Made by a program: the position numbers and the translations under genes | Assembly (NCBI RefSeq): GCF_001652725.1 | Contig: NZ_LWHJ01000029.1 | Span: forward strand, 1 to 64,000 | Source: Pedobacter psychrophilus | GTDB taxonomy: Bacteria > Bacteroidota > Bacteroidia > Sphingobacteriales > Sphingobacteriaceae | DNA: 64,000 bases | Direction of reading: 5' to 3' | The notes under the pieces: generated by a model | The model's input: the letters and a program-made list of their open reading frames with translations, nothing else | Databases searched by the model: none | Told to the model about the DNA's origin: nothing | Shown here: in pieces, positions 29,678 to 30,630 of the stretch | Layout of the letters: the number at the start of each line of letters is the position of its first letter | Position numbering within the stretch: position 1 is the stretch's first letter

Positions 29678-29751
29678 TCCTAAGTAGCTCAGCTGGTTAG
29701 AGCATCTGACTGTTAATCAGAGGGTCCCTGGTTCGAGCCCAGGCTTGGGAG
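29678..29751 (+). tRNA. tRNA-Asn (anticodon GTT)
   Basis: The 74-base cloverleaf has acceptor strand TCCTAAG pairing with CTTGGGA, a D-arm AGCTCAGCTGGTTAGAGC, anticodon loop CTGTTAA (anticodon GTT), T-arm CCTGGTTCGAGCCCAGG and discriminator G73. CCA is not encoded. It is intact, and it is the parent of the two tRNA fragments found downstream at 30073 and 30465. Confidence 0.96.
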
Positions 29752-29756
29752 CTTAA

Positions 29757-29790
29757 AAAACCCTTCAAACTACTGTTTGAGGGGTTTTGT
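29757..29790 (+). terminator. Terminator after tRNA-Asn, repeated in each cassette
   Basis: AAAACCCTTCAAAC (29757-29770) pairs with GTTTGAGGGGTTTT (29775-29788) across a TACT loop. The same hairpin recurs at 30147-30178 and 30539-30570 after each tRNA fragment. Confidence 0.85.
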
Positions 29791-29802
29791 GTTTTATGAG
29801 AT

Positions 29803-30105
29803 ATGTTCTATTTATATATTCTTTATTCTATTTCTTCCGACAAATATTATTTAGGGTATTCTGAGGATCCTGAAAGACGATTATTGGAACATAATAATAC
29901 TGGAAGAGTGACTTATACTTCTAAACATCGTCCTTGGATAATTAAGAAAGTGATAGAATTAAGTAGTAATCGGGCATTTGCCATGGAGGTGGAAAAAATA
30001 ATTAAAAAAGCTAAAAGCAGAGTTATTATCGAAAAAATAATAACCAATGCAAATTCTCTAGACGATATTAACCAGCTGGTTAGAGTCCCGACCCGTCGGG
30101 ATTAA
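29803..30105 (+). CDS. GIY-YIG nuclease domain protein whose C-terminus is tRNA-derived
   Basis: The 100-residue protein is a stand-alone GIY-YIG domain: YIL (5-7) and YLG (16-18) are the two name motifs, R25/R26 the conserved arginine position, and Glu64 in MEVEKIIKK the likely metal-binding glutamate. It resembles the UPF0213/YhbQ group. Residues 91-100 (QLVRVPTRRD) start exactly where tRNA-Asn homology starts at 30073, and the TAA stop at 30103 is the TAA of the tRNA anticodon loop (GTTAA). Nuclease activity is inferred from the domain. It is the intact member of the tandem array. Confidence 0.85.
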   Translation: MFYLYILYSISSDKYYLGYSEDPERRLLEHNNTGRVTYTSKHRPWIIKKVIELSSNRAFAMEVEKIIKKAKSRVIIEKIITNANSLDDINQLVRVPTRRD

Positions 30106-30140
30106 TCAGAGGGTCCCTGGTTCGAGCCCAGGCTTGGGAG
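30073..30140 (+). other. Partial tRNA-Asn copy 1 with a hairpin in place of the anticodon 5' strand
   Basis: 30073-30085 repeats CAGCTGGTTAGAG of the tRNA D-arm. 30086-30101 is the palindrome TCCCGACCCGTCGGGA, replacing 10 bases of the tRNA (CATCTGACTG). 30102-30140 repeats the tRNA from the anticodon loop to G73 without change. The 5' acceptor strand is missing, so it cannot be a functional tRNA. Confidence 0.9.
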
Positions 30141-30194
30141 CTTAAAAAAACCCTTCAAACTACTGTTTGGAGGGTTTTGTGTTTTATAAGATTT

Positions 30195-30497
30195 ATGTTC
30201 TATTTATATATTCTTTATTCTATTTCTTCCAACAAATATTATTTGGGGTATTCTGAGGATCCTGAAAGACGATTATTAGAACATAATAATAGTGAAAGAG
30301 TAACTTACACTTCTAAACATCGTCCTTGGATAATTTAGAAAGTGATAAAATTAGGCAGTAATCGGGCATTTGCCATAGAGGTGGAAAAAATAATTAAAAA
30401 AGCTAAAAGCAGAATTATTATCGAAAAAATAATAACCAATGCAAATTCTCTAGACGATATTAATCAGCTGGTTAGAGTCCCGACCCGTCGGGATTAA
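30195..30497 (+). pseudogene. Second GIY-YIG copy, inactivated by a nonsense codon
   Basis: This is a near-copy of the gene at 29803. Codon 48 (30336-30338) is TAG where the intact copy has AAG, in the stretch encoding RPWII. The frame is otherwise open to the same tRNA-derived stop at 30495. Several further substitutions (for example GSNRAFAIE) show that it has drifted since duplication. Confidence 0.88.
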
Positions 30498-30532
30498 TCA
30501 GAGGGTCCCTGGTTCGAGCCCAGGCTTGGGAG
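30465..30532 (+). other. Partial tRNA-Asn copy 2
   Basis: Same structure as the copy at 30073: D-arm piece (30465-30477), hairpin TCCCGACCCGTCGGGA (30478-30493), then the tRNA 3' part to G73 (30494-30532). All three tRNA 3' parts in the array agree base for base, although the coding parts between them have diverged. Confidence 0.9.
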
Positions 30533-30612
30533 CTAAAAAAAACCCTTCAAACTATTGTTTGGAGGGTTTTCTGATTTATAGGATTTATATTCCACATATA
30601 TATTCTTTATTC
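30533..30612 (+). pseudogene. Third, truncated GIY-YIG cassette
   Basis: After the second tRNA fragment the terminator hairpin and the first bases of the GIY-YIG gene recur, but ATG has become ATA and the similarity stops after TATTCTTTATTC near 30612. Only the 5' end of a third unit remains. Confidence 0.7.
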
Positions 30613-30630
30613 ATACTATACAATAAACCT

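Follow-up and report, generated by a model that had tools for sequence, protein, structure and literature searches.

Why should a run of small nuclease genes stand directly behind an intact tRNA gene, each gene joined to a piece of that same tRNA? This question is raised by one locus in the 64,000-nucleotide stretch of Pedobacter psychrophilus DNA analysed here (the window). A sequence-only reading had described an intact tRNA-Asn followed by two full units of 389 and 392 bp and a truncated third. This layout was confirmed by ARAGORN, Rfam and the repeat spacing, the 3' tRNA pieces being 389 and 392 bp apart. The order of parts given for a full unit also held: terminator-like stem, GIY-YIG gene, tRNA D-arm piece, hairpin, and the tRNA from the anticodon to the 3' end. 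The features are as follows.

29678..29752, + strand: intact tRNA-Asn (GTT), the anchor of the array (ARAGORN; Rfam tRNA, 66.9 bits)
29757..29788, + strand: terminator-like stem, unit 1
29803..30105, + strand: single-domain GIY-YIG nuclease ORF, unit 1, intact (PF01541, E 5.5e-13)
30073..30085, + strand: tRNA-Asn D-arm piece, unit 1, equal to tRNA positions 13-25 (same place in locus L024)
30086..30101, + strand: hairpin TCCCGACCCGTCGGGA, unit 1, replacing tRNA positions 26-35
30102..30141, + strand: tRNA-Asn 3' piece, unit 1, positions 36-75, equal to the intact tRNA
30147..30178, + strand: terminator-like stem, unit 2
30195..30497, + strand: GIY-YIG gene, unit 2, with TAG at codon 48 (30336-30338)
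30464..30477, + strand: tRNA-Asn D-arm piece, unit 2
30478..30493, + strand: hairpin TCCCGACCCGTCGGGA, second copy, unit 2
30494..30533, + strand: tRNA-Asn 3' piece, second, positions 36-75
30539..30570, + strand: terminator-like stem, unit 3
30587..30615, + strand: start of a third GIY-YIG gene, a remnant with ATG changed to ATA, then truncated (by eye)

The hairpin occupies the place of the 5' half of the anticodon arm (ten tRNA bases, 26-35) and follows a D-arm piece of 13-14 nt; there is one hairpin per unit, and the units are direct repeats. In shuffled windows, matches to TCCCGACCCGTCGGGA with up to 3 mismatches are expected at a mean of 0.01. The 40-nt 3' piece is the same in the intact tRNA and in both fragments, as had been claimed. 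Unit 2 is 93% identical to unit 1 over the 300-nt repeat and does carry the TAG at codon 48 reported for it, and unit 3, by eye, has ATA for the lost start and ceases to resemble the other units after ~30 bp. The dN/dS ratio is 0.34 between the window units (6 synonymous, 8 other changes) and 0.11-0.12 between the units of another locus, L117, values that fit purifying selection. The end of the unit 1 ORF is encoded by the D-arm and hairpin bases. Throughout the Asn family (window 30073-30105, L082-L090), the protein C-terminus, often LAQLVRV, is the translated tRNA-Asn D-arm.

We consider it probable that the array consists of successive, decaying local copies of a minimal selfish element. 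This element, which resembles the REPtrons described below, would combine one single-domain GIY-YIG gene with a short hairpin and have its anchor at a tRNA gene. The unit 1 protein falls within the GIY-YIG nuclease superfamily by its PF01541 match. Residues Y5, Y16, G18, R26, H30 and E64 are invariant in 16 relatives, and presumably include catalytic residues of GIY-YIG enzymes. The protein is most like UPF0213 and SLX1-type nucleases, with UPF0213 proteins (1zg2, 1ywl) and then SLX1 (7cq2) as the closest solved structures; in profile comparisons, SLX1 was matched with an E of 1.9e-7 and the I-TevI domain more weakly (E 0.005). Neither UPF0213 nor SLX1-type nucleases are known to act as enzymes of mobile elements. 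The search for Y1_Tnp gave no match up to E 10, which sets the protein apart from the HUH/Y1 enzymes (RAYTs) of REPtrons, and the sole NCBIfam match was a sub-threshold one to a group I intron endonuclease. Three other identities were rejected: an anti-phage defence system, as PADLOC gave no match up to E 1; a phage origin, as no relative turned up among viral contigs with the query used (138 stretches fitted a pattern and none was confirmed); and a known RNA family, as only tRNA reached the Rfam gathering score.

An explanation as a single local duplication is ruled out by recurrence in the same genome, in the genus and in other phyla. The 4.0 Mb genome of the window contains eight PF01541 matches, two of them in the Asn array. 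At tRNA-Met, the intact tRNA is followed by two tandem GIY-YIG genes, and after each gene comes a tRNA-Met piece broken by a TCCGCC-type palindrome. At tRNA-Arg, one gene with a stop lies between a palindrome-bearing 5' tRNA-Arg piece and the intact tRNA-Arg. A further gene (L002) is found without a tRNA, among TGTCATTGCGAG-type repeats, and the remaining two matches lie in long ORFs (619 and 460 aa). In 13 of the 18 genomes of the genus, a relative of the window protein was detected at E 0.001, in 30 loci that we grouped into 24 distinct places; a tRNA or tRNA piece is present at 21 of the 24, and the tRNAs with an element are Asn, Met, Val, Leu(taa), Leu(gag), Gly, Ala, Ser and two Arg. The other three places are L016 and L032 (the latter near a contig end), which gave no match in the tRNA library, and L033, whose gene sits among GTCACTCTGAGCGGAGTCGAAG-type repeats. 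The TGTCATTGCGAG- and GTCACTCTGAGCGGAGTCGAAG-type repeats around L002 and L033, in the same genus and with no tRNA there, look like the CGTC-tagged REPs discussed below.

To compare occupied and empty tRNA-Asn sites, as the sequence-only reading had proposed, we used the neighbouring gene, which we take to be PfkB-like. An ortholog with at least 76% identity is present in 16 of the 18 genus genomes, with tRNA-Asn beside it in all 16. We scored the site from the sequence that follows the tRNA, with the single match to the anticodon arm in each locus retrieved as a second guide; 3 genomes are occupied and 13 empty, the empty sites being those of other species rather than of strains. The hairpins of the three occupants lie in the anticodon arm, in the T-loop and on the T-stem/acceptor side, respectively, and their GIY proteins fall in two clades. 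Elsewhere in the genus, two tRNA-Val genes of genome G001 are followed by an array of eight GIY ORFs that are identical over the 85 codons compared; the order of decay seen in the window is therefore not general. The G001 array (L062 12101-17600) also contains 132-bp units without a gene, and an insertion-sequence-like gene inside one unit. Right after a tRNA-Leu(gag), L034 (1145-1420) has about four and a half units of 45 bp that contain only the T-arm, a palindrome and the acceptor end, and in L019 (1774-1847, genome G002) the second tRNA-Gly copy, 3' of the GIY gene, has a perfect palindrome (27 nt) for its anticodon arm.

Scanning with four query proteins, the window protein and three relatives, yielded 326 relatives, of which the best make up 79 distinct loci; the counts that follow apply to that subgroup. 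An intact tRNA lies within 700 bp in 67 of the 79, a tRNA piece in 63, and one or the other in 76, against 1.05% at random positions (taken in 320 kb of G001). A [TC][TC]CCG...CGG hairpin lies within the same distance in 63 of the 79, against 0.4% at random positions and 0.44% in shuffled neighbourhoods. Three loci (L107, L122, L130) have no tRNA or piece, and 16 have no hairpin. The hosts of the relatives include many Bacteroidota, and also Balneolota, Alphaproteobacteria, Smithella, Chloroflexi, Neomarinimicrobiota and Portnoybacteria.

Protein clades follow tRNA identity on our tree, which has 93 rows, 89 of them labelled with 21 tRNA kinds: tRNA identity requires 30 changes, compared to a mean of 56.3 and a minimum of 49 in 1000 shuffles. 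Note that the tree is built on few columns and that host relatedness adds to the effect. Some labels may also be wrong, as they were assigned from best matches that are short (L143, labelled Phe, has tRNA-Met as its neighbour). The tRNA pieces in turn follow the host tRNA in those loci where this can be judged by an ungapped count, pieces with a second hairpin being left out. In L011, L098 and L103, they differ from their own tRNA by 0-1 bases and from the tRNAs of other hosts by at least 1, 11 and 4 bases, respectively; for L082, L083 and L085, the tRNAs of other hosts are equally close. The preservation of the tRNA parts put forward in the sequence-only reading is thus upheld where it can be assessed, in that the pieces equal the local tRNA. 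Upstream of the intact tRNA in L088, L084, L090 and L108 there are arrays in which 5' pieces of tRNA-Asn (positions 1-25), each with a hairpin, recur every ~80-110 bp.

The hairpin, a minor detail in that reading, is by our comparisons the most conserved non-coding part. With its letters left unconstrained, interior tRNA junctions yielded 106 distinct hairpins with arms of at least 6, in 55 of the 79 best loci of the 326 relatives; they start with TCCCG (83), CCCCG (11) or TTCCG (3), and the other 9 are variants of the same core. A hairpin junction can be classified in 55 of the 79 loci and not in the other 24; 48 of the 55 have one in the anticodon arm and 16 in the T-loop, and 3 have junctions solely elsewhere. 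We then examined covariation in 19 Asn junctions (15 distinct) with a 16-nt hairpin, arms of at least 5, directly before position 36; rows without such a hairpin are left out of this set, and most of the stem pairing is therefore given by choice. The outer five pairs are invariant. The two inner pairs show double-sided changes in 8 and 5 of the 15 rows, respectively, and stay paired throughout. None of 500 shuffles reached the covariation score, and pairing fell below 50% when the partner was slid. In these chosen Asn rows, the alignment indicates that the hairpin is conserved as a structure, with compensatory change. In the predicted fold of the window chimera, the D-arm bases also pair with the retained 3' strand of the anticodon arm. 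High-copy spread of the window hairpin was rejected, TCCCGACNNGTCGGGA being restricted to this array in its genome. The shorter pattern TCCCGAT..ATCGGGA has 0-28 copies per genus genome (the reversed control has 0 in 18/18); none of 20 solo TCCCGAT regions examined held a called tRNA, and some of the hairpins are terminator-like. In L174, L175, L177 and L178, TCCCGATAGCTATCGGGA is embedded in simple tandem repeats of another kind (GTTAG/CTAAC type) that are distant from tRNAs.

Evidence of mobility also comes from six small proteobacterial genomes, several from rumen, which hold 16 relatives of the L147 protein. A tRNA lies within 300 bp upstream of 14 of the 16 (Lys, Met, Ala, Val, His, Gly, Ser, Gln, Pro). 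In the 12 copies inspected, the element starts directly after the CCA of the called tRNA (8 copies), after the CCA of a 3' tRNA piece (3) or in the T-loop (1). L147 and L151 agree without mismatch over 380 bp, from the last seven bases of the tRNA onwards, and this run stands behind tRNA-Lys(ctt) in one genome and behind tRNA-Lys(ttt) in the other. In the first genome, tRNA-Lys(ttt) is intact and empty, with flanks that match on both sides. In the second (G019), tRNA-Lys(ctt) has no element after its CCA and the downstream flank is common; this tRNA is split over two contig ends, where ARAGORN calls none, and since its 5' part is broken we do not count it as a clean empty site. The tRNA-Lys(ctt) pieces of L308 and L326 (G019) stop at these two contig ends, and another array may be hidden there. 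For L182, L186 and L188, the piece downstream stems from the same tRNA and starts in the T-loop, which we infer is what a ~20-bp duplication up to CCA would leave. Together with the genus tRNA-Asn locus, these orthologous occupied and empty sites bear out the core of the sequence-only reading, a tRNA-associated, nuclease-linked mobile element; as a whole, that reading is upheld in part. The order of decay is not general, and the rebuilding of the tRNA on insertion may not be required: where an empty and an occupied site can be compared most clearly, the element directly adjoins the CCA and could have entered without any break in the tRNA.

How such an element would move can be framed with the help of SegB, a GIY-YIG homing endonuclease of phage T6 that cuts inside tRNA genes and drives a tandem tRNA-segB amplification requiring both nuclease activity and recombination (PMC13096335). 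Given the structure-specific SLX1 relatives and the cutting and amplification by SegB, we propose structure-directed nicking followed by recombination. The element would enter at the 3' side of tRNA genes and leave an intact tRNA. The nuclease would most likely nick tRNA-derived or hairpin DNA, directed by structure, and repair by recombination with neighbouring copies would then result in insertion, tandem growth and deletion, in a presumed order of steps. The extra tRNA pieces would represent the duplicated target, with the hairpin in the anticodon arm or T-loop serving both as the recognition mark of the enzyme and as the change that stops the extra copy from acting as a tRNA. Counting against this scheme, a nuclease that cuts intact tRNA genes should harm its host.

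The same enzyme type, placed between inverted CGTC-type REP hairpins, would also be a probable mover of that REP superfamily, which is described as one whose members "apparently lack a dedicated transposase" (PMC3733652). We sought PF01541 in 240 genomes of the class of G018, taken to be Alphaproteobacteria, and sampled flanks at 110 loci, 30 of them supplied by that search itself and 80 drawn from its best matches, some being skipped; 108 were kept after two long ORFs were dropped. A GTC-tagged hairpin lies within 200 bp on some side in 38 of the 108 and on both sides in 26; the two hairpins are in opposite orientation in 25 of these 26, with the tags outward in 23. Such hairpins were found in 2 of 203 control windows 600-800 bp away and in 5 of 540 shuffled flanks. 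A tRNA lies within 300 bp in 10 of the 108 loci, and both features, REP (limit 200 bp) and tRNA (limit 300 bp), are absent from 60. The CGTC-REP pattern is present in 92 of the 240 genomes (4 occurrences in all for the reversed control). Without phylogeny correction, its count correlates modestly with that of PF01541 (Spearman 0.44; 0.36 after genome size) and hardly with that of Y1 transposases (0.14, p 0.026; 0.09 after genome size, p 0.17). A GIY-YIG gene has a Y1 transposase domain within ~1 kb of it at G190:C1:604030-604955. The tagged proteobacterial hairpins have the CGTC/TGTC tag, the 8-9 bp stem and often the CCA tail of CGTC-REPs; the window hairpin has no CGTC/TGTC tag and no CCA tail, its flanks being GAG and TTA, and its link to CGTC-REPs therefore rests on the shared enzyme type and the similar stem. 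Tentatively, as a possibility rather than a probability, we suggest that CGTC-tagged REPs, whose mover has been missing, are moved by single-domain GIY-YIG nucleases. The tRNA arrays and the CGTC-REPs would then both arise from one hairpin-directed transposition pathway, independent of HUH, DDE, tyrosine and serine recombinases; tRNA genes, which can fold into hairpins ending in CCA, would be the original target and the CCA-tailed REP a stripped-down mimic.

Set against known systems, the element is of a real, widespread and apparently undescribed kind, which behaves like a REPtron or a freestanding homing gene and is a proven member of neither group; in the open-access literature, preprints excluded, no title or abstract was found that links GIY-YIG genes to bacterial tRNA pieces or REPs. 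REPtrons (RAYT/TnpA-REP with GTAG-tagged REPs) likewise have a small nuclease gene between inverted palindromic repeats, an arrangement seen here in 25/108 proteobacterial loci and not in the window with its direct repeats of one hairpin each, and solitary repeat copies elsewhere. RAYTs are HUH/Y1 tyrosine transposases whereas the enzyme here is a PF01541 GIY-YIG protein, and where REPtrons have GTAG, the tags here are CGTC-type or, at tRNAs, missing. It resembles the CGTC-REPs (PMC3733652) in that proteobacterial hairpins beside GIY-YIG genes have a GTC tag, a stem and often a CCA tail, and differs from them in that the window hairpin is untagged. As in SegB, a GIY-YIG gene lies beside tRNA genes and tRNA and gene grow in tandem (PMC13096335); SegB, however, is a phage protein, while the present genes are on bacterial chromosomes, encode a single domain of ~80-100 residues and form clades tied to tRNA identity. 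The tRNA pieces are moreover interrupted by hairpins, and "hairpin" and "palindrom" are absent from the SegB main text (PMC13096335). Use of the tRNA 3' side, with the intact tRNA upstream and a 3' piece downstream, recalls the tRNA integrative elements moved by tyrosine recombinases, from which the window units differ by lacking a recombinase gene of either the tyrosine or the serine type: a unit measures 389-392 bp in all, and its one ORF is that of PF01541. The anticodon loop and T-loop are classic crossover places of tRNA-site integrative elements. If our reading is correct, these would be among the smallest autonomous mobile elements (~390 bp, one gene, 80-100 residues), located at essential tRNA genes in several phyla. 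They would account for the tRNA pieces with hairpins seen in genomes of Bacteroidota and would extend the chemistries of transposition by a GIY-YIG route linked to hairpins. What moves CGTC-tagged REPs, a question left open in print in 2013, would become directly testable with one small enzyme and one hairpin.

Other explanations were weighed against this minimal, REPtron-like element. An unlikely one is a freestanding homing gene of SegB type, which would cut an element-free tRNA gene and be copied in by homologous recombination, the hairpin merely destroying the site in spare copies. SegB is itself a GIY-YIG enzyme that cuts within tRNA genes and drives tandem growth, and the complement (GTTCSAWTY) of its motif RAWTSGAAC can be read as a T-loop (PMC13096335). 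T-loop hairpins in 16 of the 55 classifiable loci (of the best 79 of 326), the proteobacterial tRNA pieces that start in the T-loop (L182, L186, L188) and the weak I-TevI domain match (E 0.005) all agree with homing. However, spare tRNA copies are masked by hairpins, yet an intact tRNA remains within 700 bp in 67 of the 79 best loci of 326, which suggests that a target site in the tRNA would not be removed. An identical element at two tRNA-Lys genes would in addition require non-allelic insertion, though these tRNAs are alike, and a stem kept both in sequence and through compensatory change is not needed for mere site destruction. We regard as less likely still a passive scenario: the tRNA locus is duplicated in tandem, the spare copy is entered by dispersed palindromes, and a domesticated GIY-YIG gene simply hitchhikes. 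Solo TCCCGAT palindromes outside tRNA loci and the existence of gene-less units are in its favor; it does not readily explain the association in 76 of 79 loci (best of 326) over many tRNA kinds, the pairing of clades with tRNAs, the same element at two tRNA genes, or the oppositely oriented REPs around the gene in 25 of the 108 sampled loci.

It is improbable that the hairpin-tRNA pieces are functional RNAs, whether transcribed decoys, antitoxin RNA of a type III-like toxin-antitoxin system or a defence against tRNA-cutting enzymes. Short tandem tRNA-hairpin repeats do occur upstream of the gene in L034 and L017, pieces match the local tRNA in some loci, and the Val chimera has a predicted folding energy below that of its shuffles (z -3.39, DNA parameters); the window chimera, by contrast, does not fold unusually (z -1.05), its units decay, PADLOC found no match and mobility better suits the occupied and empty sites. 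Finally, an assembly artefact or collapsed repeats is hardly credible: tandem arrays are hard to assemble and many of the loci come from draft or metagenome assemblies, but copies differ within several arrays, and the same pattern occurs in G001 and G008, both assembled into one contig.
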